From positions 1-64,000 of the forward strand of contig JAHHHK010000036.1 in assembly GCA_019359395.1 (NCBI GenBank): a stretch of 64,000 bases of DNA. Direction: 5' to 3'. This document shows, one piece after another, positions 8,647 through 58,862 of this stretch. Within the stretch, counting starts at the first letter, position 1, and the number at the start of each line of letters is the position of its first letter. A program made the translations under genes and the position numbers. The stretch comes from Komarekiella atlantica HA4396-MV6 (GTDB taxonomy: Bacteria > Cyanobacteriota > Cyanobacteriia > Cyanobacteriales > Nostocaceae). A model generated the notes under the pieces. That model was not told where the DNA came from and made no database searches. It was given only the letters and a program-made list of their open reading frames with translations.

Positions 8647-8820
8647 TCAAAGCGATCGCACAGTCTAATAAAATCATCTGACTTTGTTTGTTGCGATACA
8701 CCTGAAGTGTTTCAGCTTCGTGTCACCGCACCCTCTTGGAGATTTTTTGTTAGAAAATAATGAATATATTGCCGAAAATTCAGACAAATCTCAATAAATC
8801 TCAAGTTGGGAGCTTATGCG

Positions 8821-9636
8821 ATGTCAACTAACATTACTCAAAACCAAAGTTTCCCAATGCCTCCTGTCCCAGACTGGGAACCTCCTTTGCCACCGACAGA
8901 TTTAATATTTGATGACGCAGAACCATTGGAAAGTAACCGCCACCGTATTGCCATGAACGTTTTGATCCGGTCTTTACAACAAGCTTGGTCAGACCGCAAT
9001 GATTACTTCGTCGGTGGTAATATGTTTGTTTACTATAGTCGTACCCAGGCGCGAAACCAGGATTCCAGGGGGCCAGATTTTTTTGTAGCTCTCAACGTCG
9101 AAGGAAATCGTTCTCGTCAAGGTTGGGTTGTGTGGGACGAGGACGGACGCTATCCTGATGTAATTGTCGAATTAATGTCCCCCTCAACAAGAAATGTGGA
9201 TATAGGGGAGAAAAAGAATCTTTATGAAAAAGTTTTTAAAACTAGAGACTGTTTCGTTTTTGACCCTTTTGATGCCAACTCCTTACAAGGATGGCGATTA
9301 GATGTAAATTTTCGCTATCAGCCTTTAGTTGCCAATGAGCAAGGTTGCTTGTGGTGTGAAACATTAGGATTTTGGTTGGGAACTTGGGAAGGAACAATAG
9401 ACCGAGAAACTGCCACTTGGTTACGATTTTATGACCGCGAAGGAAATTTAGTTTTCTTACCAGAGGAAGCAGCACACCAACGCGCACAAGCCGAAAGTCA
9501 GCGTGCAGAAGCAGCATACCAACGTGCGGAAGCCGAACATCAACGCGCAGAAGCAGCATACCAACGTGCGGAAGCCGAACATCAACGCGCAGAACGTTTA
9601 GCTGCAAGGTTAAGGGAGTTAGGAGAAAATCTATAG
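8821..9636 (+). CDS. Uma2-family endonuclease-like protein with C-terminal coiled-coil repeat
   Basis: The first ~190 residues form a DUF820/Uma2 domain: FVGGNMFVYYSR, the predicted active-site strand RGPDFFVALNV, DGRYPDVIVELMSPSTRN, EKKNLYEKVFKTRDCFVFDP. These are PD-(D/E)xK-fold proteins whose physiological role is unproven. The tail is a charged alanine/glutamate/glutamine-rich coiled coil built from QRAEAAYQRAEAEH units. I place the start at ATG 8821 because GGGAG at 8808-8812 is well spaced; an in-frame TTG at 8806 is the alternative. A similar arrangement of Uma2 plus QRAEAE repeats is common in cyanobacteria. Confidence 0.8.
   Translation: MSTNITQNQSFPMPPVPDWEPPLPPTDLIFDDAEPLESNRHRIAMNVLIRSLQQAWSDRNDYFVGGNMFVYYSRTQARNQDSRGPDFFVALNVEGNRSRQGWVVWDEDGRYPDVIVELMSPSTRNVDIGEKKNLYEKVFKTRDCFVFDPFDANSLQGWRLDVNFRYQPLVANEQGCLWCETLGFWLGTWEGTIDRETATWLRFYDREGNLVFLPEEAAHQRAQAESQRAEAAYQRAEAEHQRAEAAYQRAEAEHQRAERLAARLRELGENL
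9499..9596 (+). repeat. 42-bp coding tandem repeat in the Uma2 tail
   Basis: Two adjacent 42-base units (9499-9540 and 9541-9582) differ at only two or three bases and are followed by a partial third unit (9583-9596). Each encodes the 14-residue QRAEAAYQRAEAEH block, i.e. two heptads. The near identity at DNA level indicates recent duplication by slippage or unequal recombination. Confidence 0.85.
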
Positions 9637-9698: not shown

Positions 9699-9785
9699 AT
9701 GTCTATCAAAACTGCTTTCAGTTTTTCCCTTATCCTTAATAGTTTTGACGGGTGTTATCTTGGGATTGAAGTCTCTGGTTTCTGA
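9699..9785 (+). CDS. Possible 28-residue peptide with a strong ribosome site
   Basis: An ATG at 9699 follows a near-perfect anti-16S match, AAAGGAGG (9683-9690), with eight bases of spacing. The frame gives a hydrophobic-start peptide beginning MSIKTAFSFSLILNSF and ends at TGA 9783-9785. It overlaps the 3' end of the opposite-strand PBP2 gene by about 30 bases. It may be the truncated 5' end of a lost secreted-protein gene or a genuine small protein. I recognise no family. Confidence 0.3.
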   Translation: MSIKTAFSFSLILNSFDGCYLGIEVSGF

Positions 9786-11578
9786 AACTTACCTGGATAC
9801 TTTCGCTGGAAATAGTCCTCCATAATTTGTAAGATCATCGGAGCAGCAACACTACCGCCACCGCCGCCGGAATGTTCGGCAAATGCCACGATGAGAATTT
9901 CTGGCTTTTCAGCGGGTGCATAAGCACCAAACCAAGCGTGATTTTGCTTGATACGACCCTTCCATGCTTCAGCAGTGCCACTTTTACCAGCCACAGGGGG
10001 AATTGTTGGCTGGTTCAAAACTTTGCCTGTACCTTCAGCCACGACTTTCCGCAGTCCTTCGCGGAGAATATTTATAGTTGTCGGTTTCATATTTAAAGAT
10101 TCTCGCCAGCTTTTTGCTTCTTCATTGTCCTTAAGTAAGTGCGGCTGGACTCGATAACCACCATTCGCTGGCACAGCAAACATGATGGCAACTTGCAAAG
10201 GTGTGGTTTGTAAAGCACCTTGACCAATTGACATATTGATGCTGTCGCCTACAGTCCAAGGCATCTTCCAAACTTTCTGTTTCCAGATCTCATCTGGAAC
10301 CAAGCCTTTTGATTCTTCGTTGACGAACTCAAGTCCAGTTTTTTTGCCAAATCCATACTTACGAGTCCATTCAATCAGAGTTGGGCCGCCGACTCCCCGA
10401 CCAATTTGGTAGAAGAAGGTATCACTACTCCACTGTAATGCCCCAACAAAACCCAACGGCCCGAATCCGGCGTGATTCCACTCCCCAAAGCGAGTTCCAC
10501 CAATGTTTAGAGAACCATAGGTTTGTAGAACTGTCTTAGGAGAAAATTTACCCGATTCTAGCCCAGCAGTCGTGGTGACGATTTTGAAGGTACTGGCGGG
10601 TGGAAAAGCGCTGAGGGCACGATTAACTAAGGGATGATCTGCACCTTGTACAGTCTCCCAATCTTTTTGGGTAAGTTTCTGCTTAGAGAAAATATTTGGG
10701 TCAAAGGTGGGGTGAGATACCATTGCTAAAACAGCGCCGTTTTTAGGGTCAAGGGCCACGATCGCACCATCGCGATCGCCTAGAGCTTTTTCTGCTGCCT
10801 TTTGCACATCTAAATTGATGGTCAAGTGTAAATCATTACCGGCTTTTGCCTGTTTCTCGCCCAAAACTCGCAGCGGCCGACCAGCACCATCTACTTCCAC
10901 CTGCTGACCGCCCCATTCACCCCGCAGCGTTTTCTCATAAGCCTTTTCGATTGCCATCTGACCAATGACATCGCCCAATCGGTAGCCTTCCTTTCGCTTT
11001 TCTTTTAACTGCTCGGCGGTCAATTCGCGTGTATAACCTAGTACATGTGCCAATTCCTTGCCGTGAGGATAATAGCGAACAGCTTCCGTATGAATTTCTA
11101 CATTTTGGAGTTCGTTTGCATACTCTTTCAATGCCGTGATTTGGGCTTCATTTAAGTCACGAGCAATTCTAATGAGTGAAGAAGAGTTAACACCTGCTTC
11201 TTCTAGCTTCTTTTCCATCTCTTCTTGAGAGATGTCGAGAATTTGGGATAGACGCGATCCTACAACCGACCACGCGGGCTTAGTATGTGCCATCGGCCAT
11301 AAGTACACAGACCGAGGGTAGCGAGTGCTGGCTAAAAGTTTGCCATTACGATCAAAAATGTTGCCGCGTTCCGGGTGTTTGGGAATCAACCGAATCCGGT
11401 TCGCCTCTGCTCGCTTTCGATGATGTACTCCTTCAACAATTTGCAAATATGCTAGACGAGTGCTGATTCCAGCTACCATTAATAAGGTAAATATGATTAA
11501 AAATGTTGGCTGAAAACTGCGTCCGACTGTACGTGTATTTTTTTTGATGCTCAGTGGAGATGGTTGCAATAGAGCCAT
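9755..11578 (-). CDS. mrdA: Penicillin-binding protein 2 (peptidoglycan transpeptidase), copy 1
   Basis: This 607-residue class B PBP would crosslink peptidoglycan during cell elongation, acting with a RodA-type glycosyltransferase. An N-terminal membrane anchor (about residues 27-45, FLIIFTLLMVAGIS) is followed by the dimerisation domain starting RGNIFDRNGKLLASTRYPRS, then the transpeptidase domain. The penicillin-binding motifs are all present: STFK near residue 330 (active-site serine), SSD near 385 and KSGT near 531. A paralogue about 75-80% similar by eye starts 2.2 kb upstream on the same strand, so these arose by tandem duplication. The stop is followed closely by an opposing small reading frame. 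The symbol reflects family resemblance. Confidence 0.92.
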   Translation of the reverse strand: MALLQPSPLSIKKNTRTVGRSFQPTFLIIFTLLMVAGISTRLAYLQIVEGVHHRKRAEANRIRLIPKHPERGNIFDRNGKLLASTRYPRSVYLWPMAHTKPAWSVVGSRLSQILDISQEEMEKKLEEAGVNSSSLIRIARDLNEAQITALKEYANELQNVEIHTEAVRYYPHGKELAHVLGYTRELTAEQLKEKRKEGYRLGDVIGQMAIEKAYEKTLRGEWGGQQVEVDGAGRPLRVLGEKQAKAGNDLHLTINLDVQKAAEKALGDRDGAIVALDPKNGAVLAMVSHPTFDPNIFSKQKLTQKDWETVQGADHPLVNRALSAFPPASTFKIVTTTAGLESGKFSPKTVLQTYGSLNIGGTRFGEWNHAGFGPLGFVGALQWSSDTFFYQIGRGVGGPTLIEWTRKYGFGKKTGLEFVNEESKGLVPDEIWKQKVWKMPWTVGDSINMSIGQGALQTTPLQVAIMFAVPANGGYRVQPHLLKDNEEAKSWRESLNMKPTTINILREGLRKVVAEGTGKVLNQPTIPPVAGKSGTAEAWKGRIKQNHAWFGAYAPAEKPEILIVAFAEHSGGGGGSVAAPMILQIMEDYFQRKYPGKFQKPETSIPR

Positions 11579-11897: not shown

Positions 11898-13796
11898 TTA
11901 GTCTCCAGTAACATTCCCTGAATTCTGAGTTTTAGCTGCTGATTCTTCAGATTGAGGTTTTTCATATTTGCCTGGATACTTATGCTGAAAATAAGCTTCC
12001 AGCACTTGTAAAACCATCGGCCCACAAACAGTACCGCCATGCTCACCGGAGTTTTCACCAAACGCCACAACTACAATTTCTGGTTTATTGCTGGGGGCAT
12101 AAGCACCAAACCAAGTATGATTTGGGCGACCAGCACCAGCTTCAGCAGTACCACTCTTTCCAGATGCAGGGGCAATTGATGGCACATTCAAGCGTTTACC
12201 TGTACCCTCAGTTATTACCTTCCGCAGTCCGTCGCGCAGAACTTTAATAGTTATCGGCTTCATATTCATAGATTCTCGCCAGCTTTCTTGAAAAGTTTGC
12301 TCTTGGGGGAAACCCCCAAGCCGCAACTTTTCGCTTTTTGCTTGTTTATGCTCTTTGAGCAAATGTGGCTTAACTCGATATCCGCCATTAGCTGGAACAG
12401 AAAACATAATTGCCGCTTGCAAGGGTGTCACTTGTAGAGCGCCCTGACCAATTGACATATTAATAGTGTCGCCTATAGTCCAGGGTGTCTTCAAAGCTTT
12501 CAGTTTCCATATTTCATCTGGAACCAAACCTTTTAATTCTTCATTGACAAACTCAATGCCAGTTTTTTGACCAAATCCATATTTGCGACTCCATTCGATT
12601 AAAGTTGGGCCACCGACTTGTCTACCAACTTGATAGAAGAAAGTATCACTACTCATAGCCATCGCCCCTGGAAATCCCAACGGGCCAAATCCGGCGTGGT
12701 TCCACTCACCAAAAGTTACTCCACCAATAGTCAAGGAAGCAAAGGTCTGTAGTACTGTATCAGGAGAAAATTGACCTGATTCCAGCCCCGCTGTTGTGGT
12801 GACAATTTTGAAGGTACTGGCGGGTGGAAAGGCACTCAGGGCACGATTAACCAAGGGATGGTCTTTACCTTGTACGCTTTCCCAATCTTTTTGGGAGAGT
12901 TTTTGCTTGGAGAAAATGTTTGGGTCAAATGTAGGATAAGACACCATTGCTAAAATAGCACCGTTATTTGGGTCAAGTGCGACGATCGCACCTTGGTATT
13001 TTCCCAAAGCTTTTTCTGCTGCTCTTTGCACATCTAAGTCTATGTTCAAGTGCAAGTCATTGCCAGCTTTTGCTTGTTTCTCTCCCAAAACCCGGATTGG
13101 CCTTCCAGCACCATCCACTTCCACTTGCTGACCACCCCATTCGCCCCGCAGCATTTTTTCATAAGCTTTTTCCACTCCCATCTGACCAATCACATCTCCC
13201 AGTCGATAACCTTCCTGCTTCTTCTCTATTAACTGTTCGGCGGTTAGTTCACGCGTATAACCTAGTACATGCGCCAAATCTTGAGCATGAGGATAATAGC
13301 GTACGGCATCTGTATTAATTTCAACATCTTTGAGTTCGTTTTTATATTCCTTCACTGCTGTGATTTGTGCCTCATTCAGATCACGAGCAATCCGAATTAG
13401 TGAAGAAGAATTCGCACCTGCTTCTTCTAATTTCTTCTCCATCTCTGCTTGCGGAATATTAAGAATTTTCTCTAAACGCGGCCCTACAACTGACCAGGAT
13501 GGCTTGGTATGAGCCATAGGCCACAAATATACAGAGCTAGGATAGCGAGTACTGGCTAAAAGTTTGCCATTACGGTCAAAAATATTCCCCCGTTCGGGTT
13601 GTTTAAGAATCAATCGAACCCGGTTTGCCTCTGCTCGTTGCCGAAGTTTTGGGCCTTCAACAATTTGCAAATATGCTAGACGGGCCTCGATGCCACCAAC
13701 CATCAATAATGTAAATATGATTAAAAATATTGGTTGAAAACCACGTCCTACTGTACGTGTATCTTTCTTATTGCCTAGTGATGGGAATAAAGACAT
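11898..13796 (-). CDS. mrdA: Penicillin-binding protein 2, copy 2, with in-frame repeat insertion
   Basis: This 632-residue class B PBP has the same layout as the copy at 9755-11578: membrane anchor near residues 27-45, RGNIFDRNGKLLASTRYPSS, STFK near 329, SSD near 385 and KSGT near 546. It differs by a 17-residue insertion around residues 487-504, reading EKLRLGGFPQEQTFQE after AKS. That insertion is exactly a copy of the dispersed ~50-bp palindromic element seen elsewhere in the window. It lies between the SSD and KSGT motifs, and the frame is preserved. The C-terminus is longer and more polar than in copy 1. The function is peptidoglycan transpeptidation in elongation, with no sign of inactivation. 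Confidence 0.92.
   Translation of the reverse strand: MSLFPSLGNKKDTRTVGRGFQPIFLIIFTLLMVGGIEARLAYLQIVEGPKLRQRAEANRVRLILKQPERGNIFDRNGKLLASTRYPSSVYLWPMAHTKPSWSVVGPRLEKILNIPQAEMEKKLEEAGANSSSLIRIARDLNEAQITAVKEYKNELKDVEINTDAVRYYPHAQDLAHVLGYTRELTAEQLIEKKQEGYRLGDVIGQMGVEKAYEKMLRGEWGGQQVEVDGAGRPIRVLGEKQAKAGNDLHLNIDLDVQRAAEKALGKYQGAIVALDPNNGAILAMVSYPTFDPNIFSKQKLSQKDWESVQGKDHPLVNRALSAFPPASTFKIVTTTAGLESGQFSPDTVLQTFASLTIGGVTFGEWNHAGFGPLGFPGAMAMSSDTFFYQVGRQVGGPTLIEWSRKYGFGQKTGIEFVNEELKGLVPDEIWKLKALKTPWTIGDTINMSIGQGALQVTPLQAAIMFSVPANGGYRVKPHLLKEHKQAKSEKLRLGGFPQEQTFQESWRESMNMKPITIKVLRDGLRKVITEGTGKRLNVPSIAPASGKSGTAEAGAGRPNHTWFGAYAPSNKPEIVVVAFGENSGEHGGTVCGPMVLQVLEAYFQHKYPGKYEKPQSEESAAKTQNSGNVTGD
12286..12335. 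repeat. Palindromic element inserted in frame in the PBP2 gene
   Basis: The sequence begins TCTTGAAAAGTTTG, has the central palindrome GGGGGAAACCCCC and ends CAACTTTTCGCT. This matches the ends and architecture of the dispersed element at 31023-31073, 37583-37634 and elsewhere. Compared with the PBP2 paralogue, which reads AAAAAGC directly into TGGCG, 51 bases are added. AAAGC occurs on both sides, which could be a 5-base target duplication. Confidence 0.85.
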
Positions 13797-14114: not shown

Positions 14115-15242
14115 ATGGCTCAACCTGTCATGCAGAATCAAAGGGGGGTAACGACCTTTCAACCACTAGATGTTGAATTACGTAATGTCTTCAAGTTTTT
14201 TAACCAAGAACCAGCTGTACACGGAATAGATTTGGATGTCAGACAGGGGGAATTTTTTAGTGTTTTAGGCCCTTCTGGTTGTGGCAAAACCACTACACTA
14301 CGTTTAATTGCTGGGTTTGAAAAAGCTGACGCCGGTAAAGTTTTGATACAGGGTCAGTCAATGACTAATGTGCCGCCTTACCGCCGACCCGTCAACACTG
14401 TATTTCAAAGTTATGCTCTGTTTAACCATCTGAATGTGTGGGATAACATTGCTTTTGGGTTACAGCTAAAAAAACTACATAAATCAGAAATTGCTAGTAG
14501 AGTCCAAGAAGCTTTAAAGCTAGTGAAAATGGAAAGTCTGCGATCGCGCTTTCCCAATCAACTTTCTGGTGGTCAACAGCAACGGGTTGCTTTAGCAAGG
14601 GCCCTGGTTAATCGTCCCGCAGTCGTACTACTGGATGAACCTTTGGGAGCGTTAGATTTAAAACTCCGTAAAGAAATGCAGGTTGAGTTATCCAATTTAC
14701 ACAAAGACCTAGGATTAACCTTTGTCATGGTGACACACGACCAAGAGGAGGCACTTTCGTTGAGCGATCGCATTGCCGTGATGAATCATGGCAAAATTGA
14801 GCAAATTGGTACTCCTAAGCAAATTTACGAGCGTCCCCAGACATCTTTTGTCGCCGATTTTATTGGTGATACTAATTTATTCAGTGGTGAAATCGTTACG
14901 GTAGACTCTTCCAACATCCAAATTTTGACGAAAACAGGACTCTCAATTATCATCAGTCGTGCTGAAGATACACCAACCGAATTATCTCAAGCGGTGGTAG
15001 TGAGTGTGCGCCCAGAAAAAATAGAGCTTTCGCTTTATCCACCCAATTTGCCCGCTAACTGTTTTGAAGGACGGTTAGTCAACGTTATGTATTTGGGTAC
15101 TCACATCAATTACGTTGTGGAGTTAATCAATGGCATAAGCATCAACGTTTTACAACCCAATACTTTTGGTAGTTTGCCAGACCGCGATACACCCATTTAC
15201 GCTTGGTGGGCGGAAACTGATTGTTTAGCTATTGGCCAGTAG
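14115..15242 (+). CDS. potA: Spermidine/putrescine-type ABC transporter ATPase (PotA-like)
   Basis: This 375-residue ATPase energises uptake of a polyamine-type substrate at the inner membrane. The motifs are Walker [10 protein letters not shown] near residue 52, signature LSGGQQQR near 149, Walker [10 protein letters not shown], and the D-loop/H-loop region ending [17 protein letters not shown]. The last ~90 residues form a TOBE-type regulatory domain, as expected for PotA/CysA-like ATPases. It is followed by potD- and potB-like genes in the same direction, with spacers of about 207 and 53 bases. The downstream gap contains repeated palindromes and a gene remnant. Confidence 0.9.
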
Positions 15243-15255
15243 TCATGAGTCAAGG

Positions 15256-15306
15256 GTAGAGACGCGATTAATCGCGTCTCTACAAGAGCCACGCGATTAA
15301 TCGCGT
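15256..15306. repeat. Palindrome GACGCGATTAATCGCGTC, one full and one partial copy
   Basis: A perfect 28-base palindrome with half-site GTAGAGACGCGATT occupies 15256-15283, followed at 15291-15306 by its 16-base core ACGCGATTAATCGCGT. Further copies lie at 32605-32632 and, degraded, at about 45712-45734. The spacer position after potA would allow a hairpin that attenuates read-through into potD. Confidence 0.8.
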
Positions 15307-15359
15307 CTGTACAAGAGCCAAGAGTCAAAATTCAAGGGTTAAAGGTTTATACTCCATAG

Positions 15360-25071: not shown

Positions 25072-25370
25072 TTGGCTGTAAGTCAGAATCGCATTAATAT
25101 CATAAGTGTAAATAGAGGCTAAAAGGCTAGAAACTACGAGACCTTTGCATCAGATGCCAGAAAGTTTCGTGTGCTGTTGCCCAGTTTTGATGCTTTACCA
25201 GAATGTAGTAAAAATACTCCCACAGTGCCGCTTTAAACAAAACATTTGAGGAAAATTTTGAGATTTTTGTAACCTATGATACTTTTTATCTCAATGCCTT
25301 TTGATATTTGTAATCTTGAGTATAAAAAACTAAGCACCAAAAACAACTACTAGCAATTGGGTAAAAATTA
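25072..25370. other. Divergent upstream region of the hybrid kinase and guanidine operon
   Basis: About 300 bases lie between the kinase start and the riboswitch. GAGACCTTTGCATCAGATGCC at 25138 resembles transposon-end sequence but has no inverted partner here. The promoter driving the riboswitch leader should lie in the AT-rich stretch 25260-25370; I cannot assign boxes. Confidence 0.4.
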
Positions 25371-25480
25371 ATAGCTTCTAGGGTTCCGGTTTAACACTTT
25401 TGTAGTTAAATGACTGGTCCAAGAGAAGCACCCAGTTTAGAAAAAACTGGTCACACGGCGGGAAAAAAGCCCGGGAGATA
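25371..25480 (+). promoter_or_regulatory. Guanidine-I riboswitch aptamer (ykkC class)
   Basis: The three conserved blocks of the ykkC/guanidine-I class are present in order and spacing: CTAGGGTTCCG at 25378-25388, ACTGGTCCAAGAG at 25413-25425 and ACACGGCGGGA with AAAGCCCGGGAGA at 25453-25478. The variable helix CCAGTTTAGAAAAAACTGG lies between the last two blocks. In this class bound guanidinium stabilises the aptamer and turns on downstream genes. Here it leads the guanidine hydrolase gene at 25561, which independently supports the call. Confidence 0.93.
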
Positions 25481-25560: not shown

Positions 25561-26754
25561 ATGACTGAACAATCTTTTTCTGATTCCAATTCTCCTTTCC
25601 AACCACCTTCTACGCAAGCGGGTCGGGCGTTGGAAAAAGAAGCACATTTACCGCTAACAGGCTGGCAGCAGGAAGTTTCCAAAGGGCTAGAATATGGGTT
25701 AGAAGCAGCAGAAAGTATACGCGATCGCTCGATTCCTACCTTTTCCCGTGGGGAACTGCCGCACTTCGCCGGGATAAATACTTTCTTAAAAGCACCTTAT
25801 TTAGAAGATGTGCGGAAAGTTGGTGAATATGACGTTGCGATCGTTGGTGTACCACACGATTCTGGAACTACTTATCGACCCGGAACACGTTTTGGCCCCC
25901 AAGGAATCCGCCGAATCTCTGCATTATACACCCCTTATAACTTTGAATTGGGTGTAGACTTGCGCGAGCAGATTACCCTATGTGATGTCGGTGATATTTT
26001 CACCATTCCAGCCAATAATGAAAAGTCTTTTGACCAGATTTCTAAAGGTATTGCACATATCTTTAGTTCTGGTGCATTCCCCATAATTATGGGAGGTGAT
26101 CACTCAATTGGCTTTCCCACAGTTCGTGGTGTTTGTCGTCATTTAGGTGATAAAAAAGTGGGTATCATTCACTTTGATCGCCATGTGGATACCCAGGAAA
26201 CAGACCTGGATGAAAGAATGCATACTTGTCCCTGGTTTCATGCCACAAATATTAAAAATGCACCAGCAAAAAACCTAGTTCAATTAGGAATTGGTGGATG
26301 GCAAGTACCGCGTCAAGGTGTAAAAGTTTGTCGAGAAAGAGCCACGAATATTTTAACAGTCACAGACATCACTGAAATGGGGCTAGATGCAGCCGTCAAC
26401 TTTGCTTTGGAAAGAGCATTAGACGGTACAGATTGCGTTTATGTCAGTTTCGATATTGACTGCATTGATGCCGGATTTGTCCCCGGAACTGGATGGCCGG
26501 AACCCGGTGGATTATTACCGCGTGAGGCGCTGTATTTGCTGGGTAAAATTATCCAAAAAGCACCTGTTTGTGGACTGGAAGTCGTAGAAGTTTCACCGCC
26601 TTATGACATTAGTGATATGACATCATTAATGGCAGCGCGAGTAATTTGTGATACGATGGCGCATTTAGTTGTCTCAGGACAATTACCGCGCAAAGAAAAA
26701 CCTGCATATATTCATCCCGCAGCAGAACCAGAGTTAGTTGAGGAATGGAGGTAA
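25561..26754 (+). CDS. gdmH: Nickel-dependent guanidine hydrolase (SpeB/agmatinase-fold)
   Basis: The enzyme is predicted to hydrolyse guanidine to urea and ammonia. It is a 397-residue ureohydrolase-fold protein closest to the cyanobacterial guanidine hydrolase group (Synechocystis Sll1077, about 390 residues), longer than true agmatinases (about 300-320). Metal-site motifs: GGDHS (178-182), HFDRHVD (204-210, arginine replacing the usual alanine of DAHxD) and SFDIDCID (296-303), then PGTGWPEPGG. The PHDSGTTYRPGTRFGP loop near 98-113 carries the threonine-rich segment seen in the guanidine enzyme. The riboswitch upstream and hypA/hypB downstream support guanidine and nickel over agmatine and manganese. 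Databases may label it agmatinase. Confidence 0.9.
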   Translation: MTEQSFSDSNSPFQPPSTQAGRALEKEAHLPLTGWQQEVSKGLEYGLEAAESIRDRSIPTFSRGELPHFAGINTFLKAPYLEDVRKVGEYDVAIVGVPHDSGTTYRPGTRFGPQGIRRISALYTPYNFELGVDLREQITLCDVGDIFTIPANNEKSFDQISKGIAHIFSSGAFPIIMGGDHSIGFPTVRGVCRHLGDKKVGIIHFDRHVDTQETDLDERMHTCPWFHATNIKNAPAKNLVQLGIGGWQVPRQGVKVCRERATNILTVTDITEMGLDAAVNFALERALDGTDCVYVSFDIDCIDAGFVPGTGWPEPGGLLPREALYLLGKIIQKAPVCGLEVVEVSPPYDISDMTSLMAARVICDTMAHLVVSGQLPRKEKPAYIHPAAEPELVEEWR

Positions 26755-30925: not shown

Positions 30926-31073
30926 TGTCTTGAAAAGTTTCCTGCGGTTCGCGTTAGCGTCTCGTAAGAGAGGGAAACCCTCCTTCTCCTGACGGAGACG
31001 CTATGCGAACAGAACTTTTCGCTGTCTTGAAAAGTTTCCTACGGCGGGAAACCCGCCTACAGAACTTTTCGCT
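30926..31073. repeat. Two head-to-tail palindromic elements (GAAAAGTT family)
   Basis: Copy one (about 30926-31024) begins TCTTGAAAAGTTTCC and ends AACTTTTCGCTG. Its stem is enlarged by a nested stretch containing GTTCGCGTTAGCGTCTCG and its partial complement. Copy two (31023-31073) is the simple ~51-base form with core GGCGGGAAACCCGCC. They share the junction GCTGTCTTGA. They lie after the guanidine-uptake ATPase gene and could terminate it. The trailing CTCTGCGTGATACAAATTC to 31130 recurs in variant form at about 41063-41118. Confidence 0.85.
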
Positions 31074-31124
31074 GCGCCTCTGCGTGATACAAATTCATAT
31101 TTCTACTCAGCAACGCCAATTAAA

Positions 31125-32223: not shown

Positions 32224-32344
32224 CAGCGAAAAGTCTGAGCGGCGGCTTCCGCCGTTGGCGTAGCCCGCCGCAGCGAAAAGTTCTGTAGGCGGGTTTCCCG
32301 CCGTAGGAAACTTTTCAAGACAGGCATCTGAACTTTTCAAGACA
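32224..32344. repeat. Cluster of palindromic elements reaching into hicB
   Basis: A degraded copy (about 32224-32272, CAGCGAAAAGTCTGAGCGG onward) abuts a full copy (32271-32322, core GGCGGGTTTCCCGCC). An isolated right half AACTTTTCAAGACA follows at 32331-32344. That half-element supplies the stop codon and last codon of the minus-strand HicB frame at 32337. Confidence 0.8.
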
Positions 32345-32531: not shown

Positions 32532-32604
32532 AAAAAATTAACTGTAAATATTAAGAAAAGCAGGGGGCAGAAGGGCAGGGGGAGAAAATGACCCTTTGAC
32601 CCTT

Positions 32605-32632
32605 GTACAGACGCGATTAATCGCGTCTCTAC
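32605..32632. repeat. Palindrome GACGCGATTAATCGCGTC, third copy
   Basis: This is a 28-base near-perfect palindrome with the same core as at 15256-15283. It lies in the spacer downstream of hemE among short TTGACCC direct repeats (32590-32665). It could act as a terminator for hemE on the minus strand. Confidence 0.75.
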
Positions 32633-32670
32633 TCTTGACCCTTGACCCTTGACTCTTGACCCCTTGCCTC

Positions 32671-37391: not shown

Positions 37392-37685
37392 CAGGACTTA
37401 CGCAAAAACTCTCTGAAACTCTTATTTCTCCCTTCGGGTTTACAGTCGCCTGCGGAGGGAAACCCTCCCGCAGCGCTGTTTCACCGTGCCCTCCGTGTCG
37501 CGCCAGTTGCTTCTCCCAGGGGGAGACGCTGCGCGAACAAGTCGGGGAACCCGCCCAACGCACTGGCTTCTCTGTGGTAGCCTGTCTTGAAAAGTTTCCT
37601 ACGGCGGGAAACCCGCCTACAGAACTTTTCGCTACGGCAAGCCGCTCCGCGTCTACGATTTTCCGTTACCTGTGCGTAAGTCCTG
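37392..37685. mobile_element. MITE-like element, ends CAGGACTTACGCA, with target duplication
   Basis: This 294-base insertion begins CAGGACTTACGCA and ends with its inverted copy TGCGTAAGTCCTG. The flanks carry ACGAA directly on both sides (37387-37391 and 37686-37690), a likely 5-base target duplication. It has no transposase frame; the interior is made of nested palindromes, including a full copy of the GAAAAGTT element at 37583-37634. The 37260-37719 spacer holds no gene. Confidence 0.75.
37583..37634. repeat. Palindromic element (GAAAAGTT family), single copy
   Basis: This copy begins GTCTTGAAAAGTTTCC, has core GGCGGGAAACCCGCC and ends GAACTTTTCGCT. Apart from the flanks it is identical to the copy at 31023-31073. 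It is nested within the MITE-like element at 37392-37685, so it inserted into, or was carried by, another mobile repeat. Confidence 0.85.
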
Positions 37686-45230: not shown

Positions 45231-45577
45231 TAGACTTCTTGCAAAAATCGGAATAAGACCAAAATAAACCACAGCGAAAAGTTTGCGCGTCCGGGTTTCC
45301 CGGCGCAAAACTTTTCAAGACAGCGAAAAGTTCTGCAGGAGGGTTTCCCTCCGCAGGAAACTTTTCAAGACAGATGAACATAGATAAACACAGATAAATA
45401 TCGGTGTTTATCTATGGTTCAATTTAACAAATCTCGACTTATGCAAGAGACTCCATGAACAGAGTGAGCGCAAAGCGCACGCTATGCGAGCACAAAGAAG
45501 GAATGAAAATATTTCTTCCCCAGTCCCCATTCCCCAGTCCCCATTCCCCAATCCCCAATCCCCATTCCCCATTCCCC
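45231..45577. repeat. Composite MITE-like repeat, copy 1, with short-repeat tail
   Basis: This copy begins TAGACTTCTTGCAAAAATCG at 45231; the inverted end CGACTTATGCAAGAGACT finishes near 45451. Inside are two head-to-tail palindromic elements (about 45272-45323 and 45321-45373). The tail CCATGAACAGAGTGAGCGC and a run of CCCCATTCCCCAGT heptamer-type repeats (45517-45577) follow. The whole block recurs at 58441-58862 and, inverted, in part at 54539-54797. The spacer up to 45762 contains no gene. Confidence 0.8.
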
Positions 45578-49756: not shown

Positions 49757-49975
49757 AATACAGTTCAGTTAAGAATTTCTTCCTCTTCTTTGCGCTCTTT
49801 CTCTTGGAAAGTCTGAGCGGAGGAAACCTCTGCTCAGACTTTCCGCTGCGTCCTTCTCTACGAGACCAAGGCGTTGGCGGAAGCCTCTGTCTACGACACC
49901 AAGGCGAACGCAGAGAAGGCAGTTCGTTAAAAAATTGAATTTGACAAAGAGTTTTAGCCTTAACTGAACCGTATT
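49757..49975. mobile_element. MITE-like element with AATACRGTTCAGTTAAG ends
   Basis: The left end AATACAGTTCAGTTAAG (49757-49773) and inverted right end CTTAACTGAACCGTATT (49959-49975) match at 16 of 17 positions and enclose 219 bases. The centre holds a palindrome related to the GAAAAGTT family (49805-49851, TCTTGGAAAGTCTGAGCGG) and GCGTTGGCGGAAGCC. There is no transposase frame. The spacer 49720-50113 has no gene. Confidence 0.7.
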
Positions 49976-54538: not shown

Positions 54539-54797
54539 TAGACCTCTTGCATAAGTCGAGATTTGTTAAATCGAACCACCGATGTAGACGCGCAGCGGCT
54601 TCCCGCAGGGTACACTGATGAACACCGATATTTATCTGTGTTTATCTATGTTTATCTGTCTTGAAAAGTTTCCTGCCCAGGGAAACCCTTCCGCAGAACT
54701 TTTCGCTGTCTTGAAACGTTTTGCGCCGGGAAACCCGGACGCGCAAACTTTTCGCTGTGTTTTATTTAGTCTTATTCCGATTTTTAGAAGAAGTCTA
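54539..54797. repeat. Composite MITE-like repeat, copy 2 (inverted)
   Basis: This 259-base copy begins TAGACCTCTTGCATAAGTCG and ends AGAAGAAGTCTA. It contains two GAAAAGTT-family elements (54656-54708 and 54707-54757) in reverse orientation relative to 45231-45451, and the stretch TATTTATCTGTGTTTATCTA shared by the copies. It lies in the 519-base spacer 54403-54921, which has no gene. Confidence 0.8.
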
Positions 54798-58440: not shown

Positions 58441-58862
58441 TGGACTTCTTGCAAAAATCCGAATCAAAGCAAAAATAAACCACAGCGAAAAGTAAGCGAA
58501 GCTCCGGGTAACAGGAGCGTAAAACTTTTCAAGACAGCGAAAAGTTCTGCAGGAGGGTTTCCCTCTCTTACGAGACGCTAACGCGAACCGCAGGAAACTT
58601 TTCAAGACAGATGAACACTGATAAACACTGATATTTATCTGTGTTCACACCGAAGTTCAGAGCGGCGGAAGCCGCCGCACCCTGCGGGTTCGCGTAGCGT
58701 TCCGTAGGAAAGCAAGCTACCGACACTTCTCTCTGTGGTTCGATTTAATAAATCTCGACTTATGCAAAAAACTCCATGAACAGAGTGAGCGCAAAGCGCA
58801 CGCTATGCGAGCACAATGAGGGAATGAAAACATTTTTTTCCCAGTCCCATTCCCCAGTCCCT
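58441..58862. repeat. Composite MITE-like repeat, copy 3, with tail
   Basis: This copy begins TGGACTTCTTGCAAAAATC and reaches the partner AAATCTCGACTTATGCAA near 58766. The tail CCATGAACAGAGTGAGCGCA is shared with copy 1, ending in CCCAGTCCCATTCCCCAGTC. Two palindromic elements lie inside (58482-58536 and 58535-58610), the second enlarged by the same nested block as at 30926. An extra GGCGGAAGCCGCC-containing insert near 58660-58720 makes it longer than copy 1. The spacer 58273-58893 has no gene. Confidence 0.8.

Follow-up and report, generated by a model that had tools for sequence, protein, structure and literature searches.

Rickettsia palindromic elements (RPE) are repeats found between and within genes and, according to passages of PMC2229807 and PMC10969869, lie in frame in unrelated conserved genes; the same passages give their length as 105-146 bp or about 150 bp. 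Protein-coding palindromic repeats are also described for Wolbachia (part of PMC2996958 and a title cited there), and excerpts of PMC2229807, PMC2267715 and PMC2996958 place ERIC and Yersinia elements, Cod-2 of Corynebacterium diphtheriae and repeats of Methanocaldococcus jannaschii in frame in several proteins, the enterobacterial in-frame elements measuring 127 and 168 bp in an excerpt of PMC2229807. Here we describe an element in a cyanobacterium that compares with these repeats. It was analysed in the window, by which we mean the whole 64,000-base stretch (bases 1-64000 of contig C32, JAHHHK010000036.1) of the genome of Komarekiella atlantica HA4396-MV6 (G000; 7.78 Mb, 80 contigs), where 51 bases interrupt one of two tandem genes of the penicillin-binding protein 2 (PBP2) class. 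Very probably these bases are a copy of a non-autonomous, presumably mobile palindromic repeat that landed in the PBP2 gene and would be read there as 17 residues.

The element is best read as a protein-coding palindromic repeat of a known kind, smaller than those described and in a new host group. Like RPE, it occurs between and within genes and lies in frame in seven unrelated frames; unlike RPE, it measures 48-51 bp in genes and resides in a cyanobacterium whose genome measures 7.8 Mb, a separation drawn by description and not by sequence. Again by description, it is small and in frame like the ERIC, Yersinia, Cod-2 and M. jannaschii repeats, but has another host and is shorter than the enterobacterial cases. 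The Nostoc small dispersed repeats (SDR), reportedly described by Elhai et al. in 2008, are said to be 21-27 nt long, presumably mobile and often nested or located in tandem repeats; our element may overlap one SDR family. Repetitive extragenic palindromic (REP) sequences carry a GTAG or CGTC end tag and occur also in filamentous cyanobacteria, as stated in part of PMC3733652. Both are short, abundant hairpins, but our element ends CG...ACAG and is preceded by GTAG in 7 of its 130 copies; REP membership was ruled out by the missing GTAG/CGTC tags. Miniature inverted-repeat transposable elements (MITEs) of Anabaena and other cyanobacteria are non-autonomous elements with inverted repeats, can be located within reading frames (excerpt of PMC10969869) and measure 70-300 bp (excerpt of PMC3733652); the present element is shorter, and neither a cognate transposase nor a target duplication is established for it. 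A literature search that did not extend to Elhai 2008, to Ogata 2002 or to many papers behind subscription returned no such in-frame palindromes in genes of Nostoc or other cyanobacteria.

Both PBP2-class genes lie on the minus strand. Gene A, the filled paralogue (11898..13796, minus strand), encodes 632 aa with the Pfam domains Transpeptidase and PBP_dimer, and its top PDB matches are MrdA (PBP2) chains; gene B, the empty paralogue (9755..11578, minus strand), encodes 607 aa with Pfam transpeptidase and dimerisation domains. Alignment of A with B shows a single 51-base gap, bearing out the initial annotation as to both the length and the place of the extra DNA in the upstream copy. The inserted palindromic unit (12283..12333, minus strand; CGAAAAG...CAAGAAAG in gene direction) is in frame and adds 17 residues, EKLRLGGFPQEQTFQE plus one serine, between the motifs SSD (residues 382-384) and KSGT (547-550), again as proposed. 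Its placement in gene A is ambiguous by 5 bases (AAAGC), 12283-12333 being the best coordinates. Paralogue B indeed provides the empty site: it is without the 51 bases and has AAAGC, in gene direction, at 10109..10113 (minus strand), as located by the A/B and same-genus alignments. The 80-base stretch around the insert in gene A folds at -26.5 kcal/mol, and the tryptic peptide LGGFPQEQTFQESWR is the predicted marker of the translated insert. The two solved MrdA chains in the alignment also have extra residues opposite the insert.

The insert carries the ends and the central palindrome of a dispersed repeat, as had been claimed. A model of the element built from nine window copies, the PBP2 copy among them, found nine other copies in the window and at least 130 across the genome with an E of 0.01 or less (150 of 1542 candidates scored), seven of them judged genic. 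Against the whole genome the PBP2 copy, itself part of the model-building set, has a model E of 3.3e-13, and in a plain DNA search with the insert other copies match at E 4e-6 to 6e-4; these two results speak against a chance resemblance. The other copies can be aligned with the insert, so they are not unrelated to it. The unit reads 5'-CGrAAAG...CTTTyCAAGACAG-3' and is mostly 48-51 bp long; compared with eight other window copies, the insert has the common AGCG.AAAGT end, GGTTTCC centre and CAAGA other end, and two-sided changes occur at 5 of 13 predicted pairs across the nine copies. With stricter filters (E 1e-5) the element was found in 152 of 217 genomes of the family.

Copies are single, tandem or nested. 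Elsewhere in the window, 50-base units lie between open reading frames (ORFs) of at least 80 aa at 31022..31075 (minus strand), 32270..32323 (plus) and 37582..37635 (minus); two tandem copies with 49- and 50-base units at 45271..45373 (plus) adjoin 10-base repeats; a divergent copy at 49799..49849 (minus) has both arms changed together; and a further two tandem copies occupy 54656..54758 (minus). At 58534..58610 (plus) a copy contains a nested second short repeat (TCTTACGAGACGCTAACGCGAA, with its partner TTCGC...GTCTCCGTCAGGAGAAG), which is nested at the same position of the palindrome in several copies, including long ones such as G000:C28:14717-14817. When the flanks of each copy are joined, a tandem repeat with a period of 6-12 is present at 34 of 130 copies versus 23 of 1178 control places, mostly with periods of 8 or 10 (for example GCGCAGAG and ACAGATAAAC); heptad flanking repeats as a rule were rejected, period 7 occurring in 2 of 130 copies. 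Rfam at gathering thresholds gave no family at the window copies. In three Tolypothrix plasmids 47-55 bases matched a DNA query, at places where no gene is listed, and a search of plasmids with a composite peptide gave no match.

Strains without the 51 bases, for which an alignment with relatives had been suggested, were found. Gene A is without the insert in G001, G002 and G003, which belong to the same genus (94-95% DNA identity); together with paralogue B, these empty genes support the in-frame insertion of a dispersed palindrome that had been put forward. The exact empty sequence AAGCAAAAAGCTGG is present in gene A of G001 and G002 and in gene B of the own genome and of G004, while gene B of G002 and of G003 has it with one base different; gene A of G003 has no insert and a few changes around the site, and in G004 the query recovered gene B and otherwise matched briefly, with its first part only. 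An identical 51-base unit sits at the identical site in gene B of G001, whose gene A is empty. G001 is taken to be Nostoc sp. B(2019), whose record NZ_WVID01000053.1 carries the insert.

A 65-residue query containing the insert matched 212 of the 217 family genomes, and among the matches listed three genes hold inserted residues: own A, G001 B and gene B of G046, which belongs to another genus. Seven other listed matches to the full query are 144 bases long, which is the length of the empty state, and the others on the list cover the right-hand part only; full-length matches of further PBP2 searches and the printed segments agree with this survey. In an even sample of the order (388 genomes, overlapping the family set), own A is the sole filled gene among the listed full-query matches. 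G046 B carries a 42-base relative of the insert at the same codon, with AACGAAAAGTCGCGGCATTCCCAACAGCAAACTTTTTCA as its recognisable part and a weak fold: it has 14 extra residues, and the 60-base stretch folds at -7.7 versus -25.5 kcal/mol. A distant orthologue with such residues and without the palindrome had been named as evidence against an insertion. G046 is an orthologue of this sort, with related residues and little palindrome, but its DNA aligns with the element, and we therefore read the stretch as a decayed copy and not as an unrelated loop. It may stem from a separate or much older event.

How did the same unit come to lie in gene A of one strain and gene B of another? Own A and G001 B were left out when the 193 diagnostic sites that separate A from B were defined. 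Own A has the A state at 188 of these, the B state at 4 and neither state at 1; G001 B has the B state at all 193. At the two sites nearest to the insert, 13 bases ahead of its start and 65 bases past that point, own A has the A state and G001 B the B state, which limits the shared tract to at most 77 bases, and there are zero differences within the 51-base insert. The two copies are most likely explained by transfer between the neighbouring paralogues. Assembly error behind the A/B difference was considered and is thought unlikely, since each genome has one insert match and its flanks are A- or B-type from 13 bases away.

At up to 3 mismatches the 217 genomes hold nine matches to the subtype of the PBP2 copies: own A, G001 B, single ones in G169 and G077, and five in G192. 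All seven of the non-PBP2 copies (from three genomes) read CCCAATAGC where the PBP2 copies read CCCAAGAGC. In the PBP2 frame the T of the former would create a TAG stop; at this base the PBP2 copies carry G and G046 carries C (CAG). If T is the older state, the stop may have been escaped in two different ways, to GAG in this genus (g1) and to CAG in G046. The five places in G192:C1 (L061-L065) have the PBP2-subtype centre with different outer arms (GCGGAGAG...CGGAGGGTTCC), as if shuffled.

The impression that PBP2 was a single in-frame case did not hold up. Stop-to-stop frames of at least 90 residues contain 55 of the 130 copies and frames of at least 150 residues contain 16, seven of which were kept as genic by eye, the other nine being set aside as upstream extensions or unrecognised frames. 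Besides PBP2, six frames of the own genome, named by Pfam, carry the element in frame: SufD (within SUFBD_core), MutS (with domain III on one side and domain V on the other), SMC (immediately behind the SMC_N match), a decarboxylase of the LysA type, PutA (a compound of at least two elements, separating proline dehydrogenase from aldehyde dehydrogenase) and a short TnpB-like frame. The first five of these genes were aligned with the same-genus genomes. mutS is filled in the own genome only; sufD is filled in the own genome, G002 and G003 and unfilled in G001 and G004; smc is filled in the own genome, has a different palindrome at the spot in G001 and is without one in G002, G003 and G004; lysA is filled in the own genome and G003, carries another palindrome in G002, is without one in G001, and was not recovered from G004; the putA compound is present in the own genome and G001, with G002 empty and another linker in G003 and G004. 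Orthologues without the element were thus found for six of the seven genic cases. The different palindrome (GAGAGAAGT..GAGCGGCGGCTTCCGCCGATC..CTTCGGTGG) lies in frame at both the G001 smc site (L160) and the G002 lysA-type site (L164).

Two peptide searches gave matches in 57 and 35 of the 217 genomes, most of those listed in short frames. Longer frames with the element in other genera include what we take by eye to be an SMC protein in G085, with the element at about the same place in another frame, and presumably an ABC-transporter ATPase in G047:C38, as well as a 1494-residue protein in G158 and C-terminal tails in G152 and G110. Long frames in G127 and G047:C1 may represent N-terminal extensions; one in G022 was not confirmed on a second look.

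The lengths of the genic inserts are 48 (five cases), 51 and 93 bases. All seven are divisible by three, as opposed to 22 of the 123 other copies (p = 1.5e-5), and the difference persists without the TnpB-like frame (6/6 vs 23/124, p = 8e-5). Length differences between each of the five aligned genes and its relatives are multiples of three in 19 of 19 comparisons, two of these being zero and some including linker changes. Open frames of at least 60 residues on both sides, in any phase, surround ten copies: the seven genic ones and three of 49 or 50 bases in short unidentified frames. At 70 residues or more only the seven remain. Filled PBP2 genes are under purifying selection like empty ones: dN/dS is 0.071 for own A/G002 A, 0.086 for own A/G001 A, 0.059 for G001 B/G003 B and 0.050 for own B/G001 B, with 0.081, 0.087 and 0.038 for pairs without a filled gene. 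The insert would be nearly neutral.

The unit that differs between filled and empty sites is CGrAAAG...CAAGACAG, as shown by the empty mutS site of G001, where GAACCGCAG meets AGGCGCGG. Its bounds recur in PBP2, where the unit is preceded by AAAAAG and ends in AAG in place of CAG; the AAAGC flanks are therefore partly the element's own end. AAAGC does flank the insert on both sides, as the initial annotation observed, but the 5-base target duplication with which it seemed consistent was rejected: its GC belongs to the element in 124 of 130 copies, and ACAG forms the right end in 112 of them. The triplet on the left equals the one on the right in 97 of the 130 copies versus a shuffle mean of 90.0 (sd 1.9), a number reached in 0.1% of 2000 shuffles, and with this slight excess a shorter duplication may exist; 95 of the 97 are CAG/CAG, and among the 35 copies that are not, the triplets agree in 2, one of them the PBP2 copy. 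Of four loci with Y1-type transposases, one has a full copy within 1.5 kb, located by pattern. A divergent gene for a Y1-type transposase, G000:C56:340293-341452 (L297), has a full element copy at a distance of about 0.7 kb.

Taken together, these data lead us to propose that the palindromic repeat landed in the PBP2 gene and would then have been read as 17 residues. Insertion would be largely indifferent to genes and would fall in part into short tandem repeats with 8- or 10-base units, and selection would then remove copies that shift the frame or stop translation, a filter that may equally explain the other genic copies. The PBP2 insert may have persisted because its length is divisible by three, because it is without the in-frame TAG of the other copies of its subtype, and because it landed between SSD and KSGT, where a change in length would be tolerated, as the extra residues of the aligned solved MrdA chains suggest. 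The pattern of presence and absence points to mobility, and short-tract transfer between the two neighbouring paralogues would account for the identical copy in G001 B. Several observations weigh against this proposal. An AlphaFold model (28-row alignment) was unusable, with a mean pLDDT of 38. Neither a transposase nor a target duplication was tied to the element, and three of the four Y1 loci have no full copy within 1.5 kb, one of them having a half match. The five sites outside PBP2 lie in linkers that vary among relatives, and changes there may comprise more than one event. Some copies may truncate genes, because the set-aside 50-base copy at C62:205458-205511 (L071) runs into the end of a 176-residue frame, PIN-like by eye, of which it forms the last part; this copy may have replaced the end of a gene. 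Finally, the genic set was chosen by eye among long open frames, and this choice in itself produces part of the frame result. This bias was checked with the two-sided open frames, the 19 of 19 length differences and a count in which the nine set-aside copies are treated as genic, which leaves 10/16 vs 19/114 divisible by three (p = 2.3e-4).

Could the subtype instead prefer this exact PBP2 site and have inserted independently in own A, G001 B and G046 B? Such recurrent insertion, which we regard as rather unlikely, would fit the decayed relative at the same codon in another genus, the differing replacements of the stop (if T is ancestral) and the bases around the site, which are the same in own A and B. 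Yet own A and G001 B are identical over all 51 bases, both having the G and the AAG end that are absent from the other matches, and the five same-genus genomes hold no further copy of the subtype within 3 mismatches; a lost donor would therefore be required. Element copies elsewhere, moreover, lie at many different sites. A single old insertion in an ancestral PBP2 gene, moved between paralogues and lost precisely nearly everywhere by way of the short flanking repeats, would give G046 a natural place as an older, decayed state, and AAAGC flanks would permit precise loss. We nevertheless find it improbable, as the insert would have to have been lost from all other listed PBP2 genes with the site covered and, within the genus, from G002, G003 and G004.

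That the 17 residues are an adaptive addition, changing PBP2 function and kept by positive selection, might be suspected from the frame being kept in three genes and from the 14 extra residues that G046 retains despite the decay of its palindrome. But the element hits different genes in different frames to give different peptides, own B does without the insert and selection on the filled gene looks ordinary, which makes an adaptive origin very improbable. Ordinary loop-length variation, or slippage that resembles the repeat by chance, can point to the two MrdA chains with residues aligned to the insert; set against the model E of the dispersed-family match, the clean empty sites and, above all, the same subtype at other places in G169 and G077, it is hardly credible. 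Insertion of a dispersed repeat followed by transfer between paralogues thus remains our preferred account. Tentatively, and with less than even confidence, we also suggest that successive stages are captured here: a repeat shuttled between PBP2 paralogues or homing to one codon (in at least three genomes and two genera), a stop removed in two ways, and a palindrome decayed with its peptide kept.

The window has other features of note. A guanidine-I riboswitch (Rfam RF00442, 82 bits) at 25367-25479 (plus strand) stands just before ORF 25561-26754. Within ORF 8806-9636, bases 9466-9591 consist of five overlapping 42-base units at 21-base steps, which encode a tail of EAAYQRAEAEHQRA-like repeats. 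Another repeat, built on ACGCGATTAATCGCGT beside TTGACCCTTG-like words, occurs in inverted copies at 15242-15321 and 32596-32646.

Protein-coding palindromes are best known from the reduced genomes of Rickettsia and Wolbachia and are scattered elsewhere; the host here is a cyanobacterium with 7.8 Mb, and the genes hit include mutS, smc, sufD and PBP2. Since the same-genus sites are empty, filled or differently filled, the fate of individual insertions can be traced stepwise. With the insert in gene A of one strain and gene B of another, the route by which a 50-base element spreads becomes nearly readable, which is rare, and the effect of the inserted peptide on an important enzyme would be directly testable in culturable Nostoc.
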